From: a virus
DNA length: 29,881 nt
IMG/VR virus record: IMGVR_UViG_3300030103_004019
Coordinates: 1-29,881 of that record
Direction: 5' to 3' (one strand)
Below are positions 715-29,744 of this stretch, one piece after another. The number at the start of each line of letters is the position of its first letter. The first letter of the stretch is position 1. The notes beneath the pieces were generated by a model. The model was not told the DNA's origin. It did not search any database and saw nothing but the letters and a program-made list of their open reading frames with translations. Made by a program: the position numbers and the translations under genes.

Positions 715-1653
715 ATGATAACCATTGGCAGCTGTTTCTCCGGAATAGGTGGCTTTGAGCTTGGACTTGAGCGAGCTATCCCTAACAGCACAACCATCTG
801 GCAGATTGAGCAGGACCCATTCTGCCAATCAGTGCTGGCACGCCACTGGCCATCAGCAGTGATTCATCAGGACATCAGGCAGGTATCCTCCAAGGTGCTT
901 CCATATGTTGACATTATGTGCGGGGGATTCCCCTGCCAAGACATCAGCATTGCAGGAAAACAGGAGGGAATCAATGGGAAAAAATCGGGTCTTTGGTGGG
1001 AGATGCACAGACTTATTGGTGAGATACGACCCAGAGTCATCGTGTTGGAGAACGTGGCTGCCATTATTCAAAATGGTCTCAGCACCGTATCAGAATCGCT
1101 GGCCCAACTCGGGTATGACCTTGAATGGCAGATTATATCAGCTAGACAATTTGGAGCCCCTCACATTAGAAAACGTTGGTTTGGCGTTGCCTACCCCAAC
1201 CACCAGAAACAATATGCTAAGCCCATCAATGCAAAAGTGGAGAGGGCACCAGAATCTGATGCAGCTTCTGCCTACCCCAACAGCCACAGAATATGGCTCA
1301 AACAACACAACCAGACCAAACAGCAGGAGAAAGAGACACAGCCTGCAGGCTTTGGGCAGATTGAATCTGCTGGATTCAATGGTGCTGCCCACTCCAACAG
1401 TGAGCACATCACGAAACAATCCAACATGCCCAGCAGTATGGCGCAGAGCACGGAATCTGAATGCAGCAGCAGCCAAGCTGGATGGATACACCCAGAAAAC
1501 TATTGGCACCAAAACCCGCCTAAACCCACGCTTTGTGACTTGGATGATGGGATTCCCAATCGGGTGGCTAGACTGAAAGCCCTTGGAAATGCTATTGTTC
1601 CACAATGCTCTCAATATATTGGCTCACAGATACTAAAGGCGGGAATAATATGA
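715..1653 (+). CDS. C5-cytosine DNA methyltransferase (Dcm family)
   Basis: It transfers a methyl group from S-adenosylmethionine to carbon 5 of cytosine in a target site, probably to shield phage DNA from host restriction. All main family motifs are visible: motif I SCFSGIGGFELGLE (6-19), the catalytic Cys74 in GFPCQDIS, ENV at 112-114, QFGAPHIRKRWF (145-156), and the C-terminal RLKALGNAIVPQ (about 286-297). At 312 residues it is a compact member. The target-recognition part (about 160-280) is odd: rich in Gln, Ser, Asn and Pro, with recurring AYPN/AHSN blocks, and it coincides with a second long frame (905-1576). It starts 1 base after the small terminase stop and ends in an ATGA overlap with the next gene. 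The enzyme family is certain; target site and role are inferred. Confidence 0.95.
   Translation: MITIGSCFSGIGGFELGLERAIPNSTTIWQIEQDPFCQSVLARHWPSAVIHQDIRQVSSKVLPYVDIMCGGFPCQDISIAGKQEGINGKKSGLWWEMHRLIGEIRPRVIVLENVAAIIQNGLSTVSESLAQLGYDLEWQIISARQFGAPHIRKRWFGVAYPNHQKQYAKPINAKVERAPESDAASAYPNSHRIWLKQHNQTKQQEKETQPAGFGQIESAGFNGAAHSNSEHITKQSNMPSSMAQSTESECSSSQAGWIHPENYWHQNPPKPTLCDLDDGIPNRVARLKALGNAIVPQCSQYIGSQILKAGII
905..1576 (+). CDS. Overprinted frame inside the cytosine methyltransferase (PTPT-repeat protein)
   Basis: A 223-codon frame lies wholly inside the methyltransferase gene, shifted +1. It starts at ATG 905 with AAGGTG seven bases upstream (892-897). The predicted product has its own pattern: GDSPAKTS near the N-terminus (the same DNA encodes the catalytic PCQDIS block of the enzyme), WPNSGMTLNGRLYQL near residues 70-85, three LPTPT blocks, and an end reading NPRFVTWMMGFPIGW, read from the DNA of the final methyltransferase motifs. 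From memory, database proteins with the same ordered motifs are found in many phages and bacteria next to or overlapping cytosine methyltransferases. Two readings remain: a real second protein, or a frame held open by the constraints on the enzyme. No function is assigned. Confidence 0.4.
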   Translation: MLTLCAGDSPAKTSALQENRRESMGKNRVFGGRCTDLLVRYDPESSCWRTWLPLFKMVSAPYQNRWPNSGMTLNGRLYQLDNLEPLTLENVGLALPTPTTRNNMLSPSMQKWRGHQNLMQLLPTPTATEYGSNNTTRPNSRRKRHSLQALGRLNLLDSMVLPTPTVSTSRNNPTCPAVWRRARNLNAAAAKLDGYTQKTIGTKTRLNPRFVTWMMGFPIGWLD

Positions 1654-9221: not shown

Positions 9222-9262
9222 CCTAGTAAACTAGGCCCCTTGGATCTCCAGGGGGCCTTTTT
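9222..9262 (+). terminator. Rho-independent terminator after the fibre-like gene
   Basis: AGGCCCC (9233-9239) pairs with GGGGCCT (9252-9258), with T at 9258-9262. It lies 21 bases after the fibre-like gene stop and would end + strand transcription before the minus-strand gene. A perfect short palindrome CCTAGTAAACTAGG (9222-9235) overlaps its left arm by three bases and could form a competing structure. Confidence 0.8.
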
Positions 9263-9719
9263 ACATGCTCTTTTTTGCTTCTTGATACAGGCTGTGATCT
9301 GGCATCCCGCGCCTGGTGCTTTTGCCACCAGTAATGAAACCATAAACGCGAGCCCGAGCCCATTGGCTTTGAGTGGCCCCAGGTCGATGGCCAACAGCCC
9401 AGGCAGCTTCCCCACGTTCATAGACCTTTTTGATTATGGCTCTGGGTGCTCCAGTCACGCTGGCAGTGGCACTGATAAACCTGGATTTGGTTGATCCACT
9501 CAGTTTCCCAGCTTCTTCGATGATACGATCACGCACACCAGATCGGGTGGCTTTGATTGTGCCAGCGCCTCTGCGCCTGGTCTTTTTTGAGTCACCAGGC
9601 AGCGGCTTGAATCTGTCAGCCTTTTTGCCTTTGATGCGTTTACGTATCTCTGCTTTACGTTTGGCAGCTGTGGACTCACTGAGCCCAGAGGTGTATTTTT
9701 TTGGAACCTTGGCAGCCAT
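9261..9719 (-). CDS. DUF5824-like basic phage protein
   Basis: A strongly basic protein of 152 residues from ATG 9719; an in-frame TTG at 9800 would add a low-complexity KAKEAKAK leader. The N-terminal part reads VPKKYTSGLSES followed by a Lys/Arg-rich region. The C-terminal part has KVYERGEAAWAVGHRPGATQ, SQWARARVYGFITGGKS. This layout (Y-x-x-GLS start; G-x-RP-x-x-T-x-x-x-WA-x-AR near the end) matches my memory of DUF5824 proteins of tailed phages and large algal viruses; function unknown. It stands alone on the minus strand between the fibre-like and capsid genes. The high charge suggests nucleic-acid contact, but this is inference. Confidence 0.75.
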   Translation of the reverse strand: MAAKVPKKYTSGLSESTAAKRKAEIRKRIKGKKADRFKPLPGDSKKTRRRGAGTIKATRSGVRDRIIEEAGKLSGSTKSRFISATASVTGAPRAIIKKVYERGEAAWAVGHRPGATQSQWARARVYGFITGGKSTRRGMPDHSLYQEAKKSM

Positions 9720-9793
9720 TATCTTTTGCCTTTGGTCTTTGGCTTTGGCTTCTTTGGCTTTGGTTGCTTCTTTTTGCTGGTGTAATATTTCAT
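9719..9793 (-). CDS. Possible Lys/Pro-rich leader peptide gene (24 residues)
   Basis: On the minus strand an ATG at 9793 opens a 24-codon frame (MKYYTSKKKQPKPKKPKP, then KTKGKR) whose TAA overlaps the ATG of the DUF5824-like gene as TAATG. The overlap is the same coupling style seen across this genome. The peptide is extremely basic. Against it: no clear ribosome binding site and a low-complexity DNA origin. The same DNA read from TTG 9800 gives a Lys/Ala-rich N-terminal extension of the main gene instead. Confidence 0.3.
   Translation of the reverse strand: MKYYTSKKKQPKPKKPKPKTKGKR
9730..9763. repeat. Hexamer repeat CTTTGG, five copies
   Basis: CTTTGG occurs at 9730, 9737, 9743, 9752 and 9758 (CCAAAG on the coding minus strand). 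It lies just upstream of ATG 9719 and creates the Lys-rich low-complexity peptides in two frames. Such a tract could change length by slippage. Confidence 0.7.
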
Positions 9794-9795
9794 AA

Positions 9796-9825
9796 TTCAA
9801 TCCATTTATGTGTTAAGCTTATACT
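9796..9825 (+). promoter_or_regulatory. Candidate promoter for the capsid operon
   Basis: The ~110 bp between the start of the minus-strand gene and the capsid ATG (9913) must contain divergent promoters if these units are transcribed separately. TATACT (9820-9825) is a good -10 match; the best -35 18 bases upstream, TTCAAT (9796-9801), is poor. The terminator at 9233-9262 upstream implies a need for a new promoter here. Placement is tentative. Confidence 0.3.
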
Positions 9826-25044: not shown

Positions 25045-25430
25045 ATCGACCAAGGTTTAGCAAATATGGAGTGTTTCGAGACAAAGCAAATCGAGAGCAT
25101 CAAGATCACCTGGTGGCTGTGATCAACTCTGAGATCTCTGACATTGAGCCCCCAACCAAAGACACCCCAATCAGCTTGGTCGTTGAGTTTGTATTTCCAA
25201 GACCTAAACGACTAAACAGAAAGAAAGACTTCACAGGGCGCATTGCCCGAGTCAAGCGCCCAGACACAGACAACCTAATCAAAATGATCCTAGATGCCCT
25301 GCAGCGGACTCACCTGATGCACGATGATGGCCAGGTGGTGATGATATGTGCATCAGATTGGATACAGGCAACCAATGAACAACCACACACCAAAATTAGG
25401 CTTTACACAGCAGCACCCTATAGGGTTTGA
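24993..25430 (+). CDS. rusA: RusA-like Holliday junction resolvase
   Basis: RusA cuts four-way junctions to resolve branched replication and recombination DNA before packaging. From ATG 24993, with AGGAG (24983-24987) five bases upstream, the product has 145 residues, a normal size. The catalytic pattern is complete: VKRPDTDNLIKMILDAL supplies D91 and D93, and HDDGQV supplies D111/D112, followed by strands ending TKIRLYTA. An earlier in-frame ATG (24906) would add residues that are shadow coding of the HTH gene. It overlaps the HTH gene by 52 bases and the primase gene by 56. Confidence 0.92.
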   Translation: MWSHLHTQTIPGKPVQLNRPRFSKYGVFRDKANREHQDHLVAVINSEISDIEPPTKDTPISLVVEFVFPRPKRLNRKKDFTGRIARVKRPDTDNLIKMILDALQRTHLMHDDGQVVMICASDWIQATNEQPHTKIRLYTAAPYRV

Positions 25431-26262
25431 GTTCTCAGTATTTAAACACACAAAAGACCCAACTGTCCACCAAGCCAAGGCCGGGCTTAATAGATTGATT
25501 GAGTATCTATTAGAGCCCATCAAAGGATGTGATGAAAAAGGAAAGCTGCCACTCTGGAGCCCCACAACATTCAAAGCAAACAGCCGCAGATCCAGAACAA
25601 CAGCAAAGAGCATCAATATGCTGGTATACGACTGTGATGACTGTGTCTGGCCTTTCGATGTTTGGAGGTTATTCGCTGCTCAAGGTGTCACCACACTGGC
25701 CCACACCAGCTGGAGCCACACCCCGAAAAAACACAAATACAGGATAATCCTGCCACTCAAATATCCAATACCAGCAGGCGATTGGAATAGAGCCCACAGA
25801 GCTGCCTATCAGTATTATCAGGCCACATTGGGACCAGAGAGTGAGCCAGATATCAAAGCGCTAAAGGACACAGCTAGGGTTTATTATCGCTATGCTATCC
25901 CCAGAAACACCCCTGAGATATTTCTGAGCTCCCACTCAACAGGGCACCACATTGGGGATTTGTTAGAGCTGGACTATCAACACATTAAGATTCCCAAGCG
26001 GATAAACACCAGGCCAAAAAGCTATGGTGATGGCTCTGTAAATCTTAGAGACAGCATTGAAGATCTAGCAGTCAGAGAACAAATAACCAGCCATCTGGGT
26101 GCTCACGTAATAGGTAACGAGGCCAGGCGAATCACCTGCCCAAACTGTGGCCGGGCATCAGTCCATTTTTCACTTGATTTATCAATGCCAAACACCACCA
26201 AGTGGCCTGTGTGCAACCATAGGAACAGCTGTGGGTGGTATGGCAATTTCACCGATCTATAA
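25375..26262 (+). CDS. Archaeo-eukaryotic-type primase (Prim-Pol-like) with C-terminal zinc ribbon
   Basis: The 295-residue protein (from ATG 25375; GTG 25348 would add nine) probably synthesises primers. NMLVYDCDD gives D86 and D88 of the usual D-h-D motif. AHTSWSHTPKKHKYRIILPLKYPI (S114-H115, R123) matches the S-H ... K-x-R nucleotide-binding block, and EPDIKALKDTARVYYRYAIPRN follows with D165 as third acidic site. The C-terminal C255-x2-C258 ... C280-x5-C286 is a zinc ribbon. Neighbours (RusA, ATPase, helicase) agree. It lacks a fused helicase; the helicase is a separate downstream gene. Confidence 0.8.
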   Translation: MNNHTPKLGFTQQHPIGFEFSVFKHTKDPTVHQAKAGLNRLIEYLLEPIKGCDEKGKLPLWSPTTFKANSRRSRTTAKSINMLVYDCDDCVWPFDVWRLFAAQGVTTLAHTSWSHTPKKHKYRIILPLKYPIPAGDWNRAHRAAYQYYQATLGPESEPDIKALKDTARVYYRYAIPRNTPEIFLSSHSTGHHIGDLLELDYQHIKIPKRINTRPKSYGDGSVNLRDSIEDLAVREQITSHLGAHVIGNEARRITCPNCGRASVHFSLDLSMPNTTKWPVCNHRNSCGWYGNFTDL

Positions 26263-26285
26263 ACCGCTCAGACTTGGAGGTCACT

Positions 26286-26984
26286 ATGAGCAAATTCAAC
26301 ATCATCAACGCTGGTCAAGCAAGATCCAGCACAACCATCAAGGGCCTGATTTATGGCGATAGCGGGAGCGGCAAATCATTCCTGGCAGCAACAGCCCCAA
26401 GGCCATTGGTACTGCTGACTGAGAAGAATGGCCAGGCGAGCATCAGCCACAGCAATCCAGAGGCTGACATCATCCACATTGAGAATGCCAATATGCTGGC
26501 AGCTGTGCTCCGTGAGATCGATGAGTCACCTGAGGATTTTGCCCAGTATGATACCATTGTGATTGACTCTCTGACAGAGGCTCAGCGATTGCTCAAGGAC
26601 AGGATTATGGCACGCAAGAAAGATGGCCAGGGATTCCAGATTCAGGACTGGGGAAAGATGGCAGAGAATATGAGAGCATTGATCCGCAGGATTCGGAACC
26701 TAAAGAAGAATGTTATCTGCATCTGCCTGATAGAATCTGAGACCGAGGAATCAACCGGCGTAAGGCACTCCAGACCAGCATTTGAGGGCAGGAAAACAGG
26801 CAGTGAGATCGCTCAATATTTCAACTTCGTGGGCTGCCTGTATACTGTAGTCGAGGGCACAACAGTCACCAGATCTCTGATGCTCGAGGGCCCCAGCCGC
26901 ATAATGTGTAAGCCTTGCTATCCCCTGCAGGGTGTTATCAGTGAGCCAAACATCTCAGCCATATTCCAGGAGATCCAGCAATGA
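26286..26984 (+). CDS. RecA-like ATPase (Sak4-type recombination protein)
   Basis: From ATG 26286, after TGGAGG, the product has 232 residues. It has a clear Walker A GDSGSGKS (24-31) and Walker B YDTIVIDSL (88-96). The rest fits a RecA-like core without extra domains, the Sak4 layout: single-strand annealing/strand-exchange proteins of phages (AAA_24-type). GKMAENMRALIRRIRNLKKNVI and the later FVGCLYTVVEG are typical. It lies between primase and helicase, ends in an ATGA overlap with the helicase, and no separate SSB was recognised. A DNA-packaging or replication-loader role is the alternative. Confidence 0.8.
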   Translation: MSKFNIINAGQARSSTTIKGLIYGDSGSGKSFLAATAPRPLVLLTEKNGQASISHSNPEADIIHIENANMLAAVLREIDESPEDFAQYDTIVIDSLTEAQRLLKDRIMARKKDGQGFQIQDWGKMAENMRALIRRIRNLKKNVICICLIESETEESTGVRHSRPAFEGRKTGSEIAQYFNFVGCLYTVVEGTTVTRSLMLEGPSRIMCKPCYPLQGVISEPNISAIFQEIQQ

Positions 26985-28255
26985 AAACAAGCGAGCTGAT
27001 CAACATTGTGCAGCGCGCCACAGGCAACAGAGCCACCATCAGTGATGCCCCTAACGGGGCTGATCTGGATGTGTGGGAGAGCTTGAGCAAGAGCAAACCT
27101 AAACGCGATGAAGATGGAAACATAACCAAGCCATCTAAGCCCATTCCCAACAGAGAAAACCTGAGCATCATTCTGGAGCACGATCCAACTTTTGAGTCCC
27201 TCAAGTATATGATCAACAGTGACAAGATGCTGTATCAAGACCAGATGATAGAGGACCACACCCAGGAGGACATAGCCCTGGACCTTGAGATTAGATACCG
27301 CTACACAACCAGCGACCAGAAGCTAAGGGCAGGCATCCAGAGAGTATGCAGGCAGCGCGAGGTGGATCCCATTCGTGATTACTTGATGAGCTTGACCTAT
27401 GACCCATCCAGGGCTGGACTAGTGGAGAATCTATTTGTAGATCACTTCCAATGCCAACAGGGCAGCAATGCACCACTGCTAAAGGAGATAGCAAAGCGAT
27501 GGGCCATCAGCTGTGTCGCTAGGGCTCTGGAGCCTGGATGCAAGATGGACACGTGCCTGGTGTTAGTTGGGCCCAAAGGGATTGGAAAATCAACAGCCTT
27601 GGCCACTCTGTGTGGGCATCAGTGGTTTAGTGATTCTGATCTCAGCATTGACCACAAAGATGGAAAGGAGCTGATACACCAGAGTGGAGTCTGGATCTGG
27701 GAGCTGAGCGAAATGCACTCATTGCACGGCAAGTCAGCAGATAATGCCAAACAGTTTCTGGCTAGCCAGGTCGACAGATACCGGCCATCTTATGGCAAGT
27801 ATCCAGTGGAGAGACAGCGCCGCATAATCTTCACAGCCACCACCAATGAATGGCAGTTTCTCAGCGATGGTCCAGAGCGCAGATTCTGGCCCATAGTATG
27901 CAATCAGGAGATTGATCTCAATAGACTTGGAGCTGATAGAGATGCCATCTGGGCTGAGGCTGTATGGCTGTATCAGCAAGGCGAGCGCTGGTGGCTAGAC
28001 ACCACACCAGAGCACGACTATCCACAGCAGCTTGAGGAATACCAACAGATCCACAGGATTGATGACCCCTGGGTCCAGGTCATCCAGGACTTTATGCTGA
28101 CCAGCCAGGGGCCAACCACCAGGGACATAATGCAGAAACTTGAGCTACAGGCAGCTCAGCAACACACAGGGAACTCACGGCGAATCGCCAAGCTAATGAG
28201 AGACCTTGGATACAAACAACGACGACAGGAGAACAAAAGAATATGGACAATTTAG
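26981..28255 (+). CDS. VirE-like / SF3-type helicase (replicative)
   Basis: A 424-residue protein with an uncharacterised N-terminal 130 residues and a VirE-family P-loop domain: Walker A GPKGIGKS (197-204), Walker B-like VWIWELSE (237-244), sensor-1-like FTATTNEW (284-291) and the arginine-finger motif GPERRFWP (297-304). Members of this family serve as replicative helicases in phages and satellite elements together with a primase, which is encoded two genes upstream. The C-terminal 80 residues (DDPWVQVIQDFM ... ARKLMRDLGYKQRR-like) look like a winged-helix DNA-binding domain. Starts in an ATGA overlap and ends overlapping the next gene. Confidence 0.88.
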   Translation: MKTSELINIVQRATGNRATISDAPNGADLDVWESLSKSKPKRDEDGNITKPSKPIPNRENLSIILEHDPTFESLKYMINSDKMLYQDQMIEDHTQEDIALDLEIRYRYTTSDQKLRAGIQRVCRQREVDPIRDYLMSLTYDPSRAGLVENLFVDHFQCQQGSNAPLLKEIAKRWAISCVARALEPGCKMDTCLVLVGPKGIGKSTALATLCGHQWFSDSDLSIDHKDGKELIHQSGVWIWELSEMHSLHGKSADNAKQFLASQVDRYRPSYGKYPVERQRRIIFTATTNEWQFLSDGPERRFWPIVCNQEIDLNRLGADRDAIWAEAVWLYQQGERWWLDTTPEHDYPQQLEEYQQIHRIDDPWVQVIQDFMLTSQGPTTRDIMQKLELQAAQQHTGNSRRIAKLMRDLGYKQRRQENKRIWTI

Positions 28256-28752
28256 ATCATCCGATAGACCACACAGGTGAATCATTCAAACCAATGCCAA
28301 CCTGGACAGACTTTATTATCTATCATAAGCGCCAGCTCAGGCTGAGCACCAGAGCATTTGCTGACCACATTGGCGTGGTCCGTGAGACAGTCTATTACTG
28401 GATCAGAAATCCCACAGTGATGCCCCAGGACCACATCAGAAAGCAGGTGGAATCCAGGCTAATGATGAGGTGGGTGGACTATGATGGGCCAACCAGATGG
28501 GACTCCAGAGTCTGGGGTGATTGCTTCCCGGTCATCCTCAGAGGTTTGATTGAGGACTCAGGGCTTGAGATTGTTGTGCTGGCTCGCAGAGCTGGAATCA
28601 ACCATAACAATATATACAATTGGATGAATGGACTCAGCTTCCCCACATTGGTATCCCTCAGCTTATTAGTCGAGGTTCTGGGAGATCATCTGCCAATTAC
28701 CAAAGGACAAATTTATCTCAAGCTTCACAAATCAGTCCTCAAGACATTGTGA
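28243..28752 (+). CDS. Double HTH DNA-binding protein
   Basis: The 169-residue protein has two helix-turn-helix segments of the XRE type: about residues 30-58 (RLSTRAFADHIGVVRETVYYW) and about 112-140 (LEIVVLARRAGINHNNIYNW). Each is followed by a helix. It is the last gene before the terminator and the TGCCAGAT repeat cluster. A two-headed binder would suit direct or inverted sites, so it may be the initiator or repressor that binds them; this is inference. The start at ATG 28243 has AGGAGA about 10 bases upstream; the 3' end of the helicase gene overlaps it. Confidence 0.78.
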   Translation: MDNLDHPIDHTGESFKPMPTWTDFIIYHKRQLRLSTRAFADHIGVVRETVYYWIRNPTVMPQDHIRKQVESRLMMRWVDYDGPTRWDSRVWGDCFPVILRGLIEDSGLEIVVLARRAGINHNNIYNWMNGLSFPTLVSLSLLVEVLGDHLPITKGQIYLKLHKSVLKTL

Positions 28753-28809
28753 AACGTGTTACTAAGTATGTGTCAGGTAGGGAATGACTTGACAGTTTTC
28801 TTGTTGTCT

Positions 28810-28846
28810 GGAGCCCTGGGATGGTTGTCCCCAGGGCTCCTTTTTT
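28810..28846 (+). terminator. Strong rho-independent terminator closing the replication operon
   Basis: GGAGCCCTGGG (28810-28820) pairs perfectly with CCCAGGGCTCC (28830-28840) around a nine-base loop, followed by TTTTTT (28841-28846). It lies 58 bases after the stop of the double-HTH gene. On the minus strand no T run follows, so it works in one direction. Confidence 0.95.
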
Positions 28847-28854
28847 GCCTAAAT

Positions 28855-29078
28855 ATCCAGGATGCTGCCAGATACATGCCAGATGATCTGGCAGATGATA
28901 ACTCAGATACACCCTGGACTATCGGGGGATTTTAGTGCTCTGCCAGATAAATACACTATTTAACTAAATGGAATTTATTTTTATAATTATACTTAAAGAG
29001 CCAAATCATCTGGCATTTGGTGATTCGCTAGCAATAACACAGAGATAGGCCAAAAACCTATCTGGCAGCATCCTGGAT
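28855..29078. repeat. TGCCAGAT repeat cluster, 20-bp inverted repeat and AT-rich core (origin/operator candidate)
   Basis: The 8-mer TGCCAGAT occurs six times: + strand at 28866, 28877 and 28941; - strand at 28886-28893, 29008-29015 and 29060-29067. Two copies form the perfect palindrome TGCCAGATGATCTGGCA (28877-28893). The outer arms 28855-28874 and 29059-29078 are a perfect 20-bp inverted repeat. About 28949-28998 is roughly 85% A+T and includes TATAAT (28982-28987). No gene lies at 28753-29057. Repeated binding sites plus AT-rich DNA next to replication genes suggest an origin; a repressor operator array is the main alternative. Confidence 0.7.
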
Positions 29079-29408
29079 CTTGCGCTGCATTTGCTTGGCC
29101 CAGGTTCTGCCTGGACTACCACCCCACAGAGCCCAGGCAATTGCTGCCTTGCTGTTGGACCTTTTGCGGGCTTCAGTCTCTGACTCTGACTCACCGTGCC
29201 TTGCAAACCAGGCAACCATCAGATTGATTTGAGCAGCATCCACAGAGCCACTGATCAATCTACGAGCGGTCAGCATTCCAGTGCCTGGGACTCTGCCATC
29301 ACTAGAGTCTTTGTATGCAGCTCGCTGGCTGATTGGTCTGCTGAGATTGAGGTCACGAGCACGCTGGGCAATGACTTGGATTTCCTTGGGGACTTTGAAT
29401 TTTGGCAT
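29058..29408 (-). CDS. Small basic protein with AWALWGG motif, function unknown
   Basis: A 116-residue protein on the minus strand. It reads KFKVPKEIQVIAQRARDLN near the start, then LTARRLISGSVDAAQINLMVAWFARHGESESE, then SKAAIAWALWGGSPGRTWAKQMQRKI at the end. From memory, proteins or domains with this order (helix, '-AR-', 'FARHE', 'AW-LWGG--GR-WA') are common in aquatic phages, sometimes fused to head proteins; role unknown. Its 3' end carries one arm of the 20-bp inverted repeat. The start CAT (29406-29408) is 33 bases from the divergent next gene. Single-gene minus-strand unit like the one at 9261-9719. Confidence 0.75.
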   Translation of the reverse strand: MPKFKVPKEIQVIAQRARDLNLSRPISQRAAYKDSSDGRVPGTGMLTARRLISGSVDAAQINLMVAWFARHGESESETEARKRSNSKAAIAWALWGGSPGRTWAKQMQRKIQDAAR

Positions 29409-29441
29409 AGTATTCTCACAGCTATAGGGTTATGATTCACT

Positions 29442-29744
29442 ATGACTATAGTACATCCAGCACTCCAGGCGCTACTTGACAAGGGGATACACTATGAGGG
29501 TGAGATACTTGACCCATCTGTTTGCGCTAGTGTATTCCAGCTTGAAATGGAATCACTCAGTTCAGCCTGGTCAGTTGAAACCAATATCAACAGCTCAACA
29601 GTTAGCCATATTGGAGTGCAGATTATTGAGGTGATATGGCTTGACACTCACCTAAAGTTCAATGTCCACAGGCACCACCCAAAAATGCTGGACATAATAG
29701 GGAGTACGCTGAGAGTCATCAATGAACTGAGCCCGGAGGTTTGA
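29442..29744 (+). CDS. Hypothetical protein (100 residues)
   Basis: A frame from ATG 29442 to TGA 29742-29744 encodes MTIVHPALQALLDKGIHYEGEI, then a helical VFQLEMESLSSAW and a beta pair (TVSHIGVQIIEVIWLDTHLKF), ending with MLDIIGSTLRVINELSPEV. No family is recognised. The ribosome binding site is poor. It is divergent from 29058-29408 across a 33-base gap with CTATAG hexamers at 29422 and 29446, and its stop overlaps the next ATG as TGATG, a coupling pattern typical here, which supports it as a gene. Confidence 0.6.
   Translation: MTIVHPALQALLDKGIHYEGEILDPSVCASVFQLEMESLSSAWSVETNINSSTVSHIGVQIIEVIWLDTHLKFNVHRHHPKMLDIIGSTLRVINELSPEV

Follow-up and report, generated by a model that had tools for sequence, protein, structure and literature searches.

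A putative SaPI/PICI-type replication origin downstream of a VapE-type helicase gene in an uncultured tailed phage

Results

Genes around the repeat cluster

The window analysed here is a whole virus record of 29,881 bases (IMGVR_UViG_3300030103_004019), in which no end repeats were detected. It has matches to terminase, portal, major head protein, tape measure and endolysin. Near its right end, an operon encoding a RusA resolvase, a probable primase, a Sak4-like ATPase, a VapE-type helicase and a protein with two helix-turn-helix (HTH) segments is followed by an interval, 28753-29057, that holds no convincing gene and sits between two convergent genes (Table 1). The repeat cluster described below begins 600 bp after the VapE stop, with one gene between; the corresponding distance in relatives is 132-1680 bp.

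The convergent gene encodes a small protein that is similar to portions of the annotated major capsid proteins of Synechococcus phage S-CBS3 and of Roseobacter phages CRP-406 and CRP-811. It may be a relative, encoded by a gene of its own, of a domain that occurs within capsid genes or next to them. Two further genes differ in position between the window and a related record, G004. A DUF5824 gene lies on the opposite strand inside the structural region of the window (9261-9800, minus strand), and its G004 relative (61% identity) adjoins the convergent gene. A C5 cytosine methyltransferase gene is near the left end of the window (715-1653), and is found beside the putative origin slot in G004 (L016:14312-15358) and apparently in L030 too.

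Table 1. Features of the putative origin and its surroundings (window coordinates)
Feature	Position	Strand	Remarks
Probable primase partner gene	25348-26262	+	Weak PHROG DNA-primase matches; homologues in many VapE relatives
Sak4-like ATPase gene, same operon as VapE	26235-26984	+	PF13479 AAA_24, phrog_124
VapE-type helicase gene, presumed initiator	26981-28255	+	Pfam PF05272, E 7.7e-63; structure model; PriRep1 7pds match; covariation
Double-HTH protein gene, probably not a general iteron binder	28243-28752	+	Weak YdaS/HTH_31/HTH_3 matches; not conserved among relatives
Intrinsic terminator between operon and putative origin	28810-28846	+	11-bp perfect stem 28810-28820/28830-28840, then T run
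Left arm of putative origin	28855-28908	+	Iterons 28855 (degenerate ATCCAGGATGC), 28866, 28877, 28889 (TGGCAGAT), 28901 (degenerate, CAGAT core 28904); 11-12 bp apart; contains palindrome 28877-28893
Inner left iteron TGCCAGAT	28941-28948	+	52 bp inside 28889
AT-rich core, presumed DNA-unwinding element	28949-28999		86% A+T
Inner right iteron	29008-29015	-	52 bp inside 29060
Right arm of putative origin	29059-29081	-	Iteron 29060-29067 and adjoining degenerate copy; mirrors left outer arm
Convergent gene beyond putative origin	29058-29408	-	3' end overlaps right arm; orthologues in relatives; served as anchor

An 8-mer is clustered in two facing arms

Six exact copies of TGCCAGAT lie in 28866-29067, at 28866 (+), 28877 (+), 28886 (-), 28941 (+), 29008 (-) and 29060 (-), where 0.014 would be expected per 202 bp. 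The sequence-only reading of this DNA, which put the expectation at about 0.006 in 200 bp, had pointed to the excess of copies, and simulation bears this out: among 200 Markov-1 genomes of the size of the window, the maximum count of any 8-mer per 202-bp window was two in 40 genomes, three in 158 and four in 2. Its description of copies on both strands in AT-rich, gene-free DNA, with a 17-bp palindrome (TGCCAGATGATCTGGCA, 28877-28893), also stands. The palindrome probably arises only because iterons adjoin one another there, and is unlikely to be the functional unit. As a candidate exact word shared with other phages it was rejected, a viral contig scan having returned seven chance matches and no cluster.

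A chance or compositional artefact would fit the enrichment of the word over the whole window (12 copies against about 3.2 expected; simulated maximum 8), but six copies per 202 bp occurred in 0 of 200 simulated genomes and the layout is conserved in relatives, so that this explanation is already refuted at the level of the pattern and has a negligible probability. Since the six copies beyond the cluster are scattered singly over the window, little weight can be given to any single copy.

Read on one strand, the left block has CAGAT cores at 28869, 28880, 28892 and 28904, spaced 11-12 bp and preceded by a degenerate copy at 28855. The outer arms are linked by a 20-bp perfect inverted repeat (28855-28874/29059-29078; 23 nt at 96% in the repeat search). 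The window has two iteron sets around an AT-rich region, the right one being weak, with one exact and one degenerate copy.

An Rfam scan of 28200-29500 gave no match, and no DnaA box (TTATCCACA) was found in the window within the 760 bp searched from the end of the convergent gene. GC skew, a check proposed with the sequence-only reading, does not clearly point to an origin in a record as short as this one. The convergent gene has a terminator-like hairpin (29043-29063, minus strand) that overlaps the right-arm iteron, so that termination and putative origin sites share bases.

The layout recurs 3' of VapE in relatives

Scans with VapE alone or with the double-HTH protein alone found no relatives, and the family was reached through searches with the terminase and the convergent gene. 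A search with a VapE alignment then gave 80 loci, which together with the window make 42 distinct sequences at 95%; 40 of them, window included, had enough 3' sequence for clusters to be counted. A strong repeat cluster was present 3' of VapE in 34 of these 40 loci, and in 31 of the 34 it formed facing arms with iterons mostly 10-11 bp apart. By the same procedure, the 5' side of VapE gave 2 clusters in 40 loci (none facing), the inside of VapE 1 in 42, and Markov-simulated 3' sequence 0 in 120. Within arms, 114 of 157 steps measure 10 or 11 bp, and much of the remainder is near two turns. The 50-bp cores of relatives are 78-96% A+T, and their outer span has a median of 264 bp, compared with a shorter 202 bp in the window (exact sites only). 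Single inner sites also occur in several relatives, mostly 47-75 bp inward of an arm.

The repeat word differs from lineage to lineage. Thus, conservation of the sites in relatives, which the sequence-only reading had put forward as a check, holds for layout and position but not for the exact word. Words found in the same kind of layout, behind the anchor gene or VapE, include TGGACAT with DnaA boxes in L018, AACAGATA in L030, AAGCAGATA in L033, AATAACA in L034, TGGTATT and CTTGCCAC in L041, and ATGACAGA, repeated ten times adjoining VapE, in L023.

DnaA boxes cluster on the 3' side in VapE loci (23 in 74 kb versus 3 in 207 kb) and are present in L018, L019, L066, L087 and L097. In L066, L087, L097 and L018 they lie 3' of VapE, beside the putative VapE-type origin, and in L066 and L018 they also adjoin lineage-specific iterons. 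This suggests that host DnaA could assist some VapE-type origins.

In three loci the VapE frame ends at about 343-364 residues (L021:6199-7248, L028:3082-4176, L036:2566-3597), without the C-terminal winged helix, yet clusters occur further 3'. These short frames may reflect a frameshift, a split gene or an assembly error. A scan of a genome collection with the VapE alignment gave one distant match and identified no host or integrated relatives.

The same genomic slot carries DnaA boxes in a relative with no detectable VapE

The terminase relatives share 59-66% identity and include G004 (L016), a record of 29,908 bp that keeps the convergent gene (66%). No VapE was detectable in G004, which has an O-like/DnaD-like protein in its place (weak matches). 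At the 3' end of its convergent gene, the orthologous slot (L016:15426-15582, contig IMGVR_UViG_3300044723_007383) contains ten perfect DnaA boxes with alternating spacings of 12 and 20 bp. Since these boxes stand in a genome with no detectable VapE, the slot looks like an origin even with a different initiator, as though initiator and origin type had been exchanged together while the place in the genome stayed the same. A survey anchored on the convergent gene gave 25 loci; some of their contigs recur in the VapE survey (L059/L033, L062/L034, L095/L030), which means that neither survey is independent of the other.

The iteron word covaries with the C-terminus of VapE

The predicted model of VapE from the window (pLDDT 89.3) has a C-terminal winged helix at about residues 363-424, in which R400 is located in the third helix (391-408), the presumed recognition helix. 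The nearest solved structure is PriRep1 with double-stranded DNA (PDB: 7pds; Z 31.9, rmsd 3.8, 374 residues), which is also matched by sequence (E 2e-58). This places VapE of the window among the VapE/Rep-type self-loading helicases, and self-loading is predicted for it as well. The C-terminal part also matched a methyltransferase in the PDB sequence search (E 0.02), which was taken as chance.

Given the helicase core, iteron similarity tracks the VapE C-terminus (partial Mantel r 0.26; 0 of 2000 permutations as high), and the reverse does not hold. For two classes of word, CAGAT and ACAC, which were defined after the words had been seen and with the Arg loci L052, L062 and L116 omitted as fitting neither, residue 400 is the most informative of 408 helicase columns (normalised information 0.81; runner-up 0.34). 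It is Lys in 13 and Arg in 1 of the ACAC loci and Arg in all 14 CAGAT loci; L088 is the exception to this rule. When the C-terminus is left out of the tree, Lys/ACAC loci fall into three separate groups, one of which encloses L050 (Arg/CAGAT); this amounts to about four coupled changes of residue and word. As the classes were drawn after seeing the words and three Arg loci were left out, we regard this covariation as a strong lead, not proof.

Discussion

The repeated 8-mer very probably marks the replication start of the phage, in agreement with the sequence-only reading, which had proposed an origin from the iterons, the AT-rich segment and the adjacent replication genes. The proposal is strongly supported by comparison, because the same architecture is found 3' of VapE in dozens of relatives and because the orthologous slot of G004 holds ten DnaA boxes.

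The same reading had named the double-HTH product as the natural binder, and on this point the comparison does not support it. Such a protein could act as an iteron-binding initiator that recruits VapE: its gene directly precedes the sites and belongs to the VapE operon, and two HTH-like segments are recognisable in the protein. However, no full-length homologue of it was found in the fetched relatives, which keep the layout and in which no more than partial similarity to one HTH was seen; about ten relatives have their first iteron no further than about 300 bp from the VapE stop, and in several relatives the iterons come directly after VapE; and it is the VapE C-terminal winged helix with which the iteron word covaries. 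We consider the double-HTH protein an unlikely initiator, and most likely the iterons are read by the phage's own ring helicase, VapE.

A role of the sites as operators for a repressor or other regulator of the phage, unconnected with replication, is very unlikely. The palindrome is operator-like, the phage encodes HTH proteins, and a promoter-like match (28960-28987) overlaps the AT-rich core, though such matches are about as numerous as expected by chance. Against this, the region is enclosed by convergent genes and a terminator and offers no gene start to regulate, none of the remaining exact copies is close to the operon starts or to the divergent start at 29408-29442, and facing arms with an AT-rich core are kept 3' of VapE in different lineages even as the word varies. 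Centromere-like partition sites and att sites can likewise contain repeat arrays and inverted repeats, but no integrase or ParA/ParB match was found among the proteins scanned, a set that covered part of the small ORFs, and the linkage in relatives is to VapE and not to integrase or partition genes, so that a partition or recombination site is less likely still.

Our preferred reading, to which we give a probability of roughly 0.8, is that the cluster is an origin of the SaPI/PICI type, used by a self-loading helicase in a tailed-phage lineage. We infer that the C-terminal winged helix of VapE would bind the TGCCAGAT iterons in both facing arms and that one hexamer would be seeded per arm. The two hexamers, loaded head to head and with no separate loader, would melt the AT-rich core, and the neighbouring primase together with a polymerase could then launch bidirectional forks. 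The polymerase is presumably that of the host, since none was recognised among the proteins examined.

A cluster 3' of VapE was likewise found in the cultured phages Marinobacter PS3, Pseudomonas U5, Bacteroides F2, Enterococcus phiFL4A, Staphylococcus 47, Corynebacterium SamW, Paenibacillus Bob and Acutalibacter Fontainebleau, and a weaker one in Rhodobacter RcMcDreamy; in PS3, phiFL4A, 47, Bob and Fontainebleau, sites of both orientations are intermingled and do not form two clean facing arms. In ctHz2215, Bacteroides BF1-2, Burkholderia Mica and Leuconostoc LNTR3 no clear downstream cluster was found, and the evenly spaced repeat of Lactococcus 1358 is doubtful, being further off and probably coding. 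Hence, not every VapE phage has a recognisable array. The Streptococcus satellite Javan292 shows the site geometry of the window's family: next to its VapE, three sites at 11-bp intervals are followed by an inverted site about 194 bp away.

These results locate a likely origin for an uncultured phage lineage, and suggest that the paired-arm origin of pathogenicity-island satellites is widespread in tailed phages; related clusters occur in cultured phages too. The covariation offers a simple, testable rule for origin recognition by VapE-type helicases, which bears on phage-satellite compatibility in one cell and on the divergence of replication modules. It is conceivable, at a little under even odds, that the choice of Arg or Lys at residue 400 of the recognition helix determines, for the most part, one base of the origin word, that SaPI/PICI-type origins are a widespread tailed-phage class and not peculiar to satellites, and that specificity shifts by coupled changes of residue and iterons.

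Comparison with known replicons

DnaA-dependent origins are recognised by a cluster of DnaA boxes, which the searched stretch of the window lacks. In origins of iteron plasmids and of the lambda type, iterons stand beside AT-rich DNA near replication genes, as they do in the window. In those systems, however, a non-helicase initiator on a direct-repeat array recruits the host helicase, whereas the window has facing arms and its presumed binder is the helicase itself.

The alpha helicase of satellite phage P4 recognises iterons through its C-terminus, as we predict for VapE. P4 (alpha, ori, crr) differs in having two separate cis regions and a fused primase-helicase, and the likeness noted here is one of description. 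P4 and PICIs are themselves compared in PMC6092414. For Cch2 of SCCmec, PMC7581432 describes an isolated C-terminal domain that binds direct repeats downstream of its gene. The helicase of the self-loading type and the downstream repeats are shared with the window; Cch2 differs in belonging to the D5/SaPI5 Rep branch and in having only three 5-nt iterons, and paired arms are not described for it.

The closest parallel is the SaPI/PICI replicon. Two iteron sets flank an AT-rich region in PICI origins (PMC6092414), and the C-terminal domain of the SaPI Rep helicase recognises the downstream iterons (PMC7581432). The window resembles these in its VapE-like helicase fold (7pds PriRep1, Z 31.9), in a putative origin downstream of the helicase gene, in two iteron sets around an AT-rich region, in element-specific words and, as predicted here, in a C-terminal domain as the reader (PMC6092414, PMC7581432). 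In SaPI/PICI, the ori is directly 3' of rep, whereas a separate gene lies between helicase and putative origin in the window; some relatives of the window also add DnaA boxes. The carriers differ as well: SaPIs and PICIs are satellites, whereas the carrier here is a tailed phage that encodes terminase, portal, capsid and tail proteins itself. Given the matches to terminase, portal, head, tape measure and endolysin in the window, the element as a whole does not qualify as a PICI; only its replicon resembles that of one.

A 2018 paper states that the SaPI/PICI origin layout is found in no other known bacterial replicon (PMC6092414), and in the open-licence literature, covered mostly at the level of abstracts, no paper describing the paired-arm layout in tailed phages was found. 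The paired-arm replicon is thus known from satellites; what appears to be new is a different carrier, with the layout present in dozens of tailed-phage contigs.
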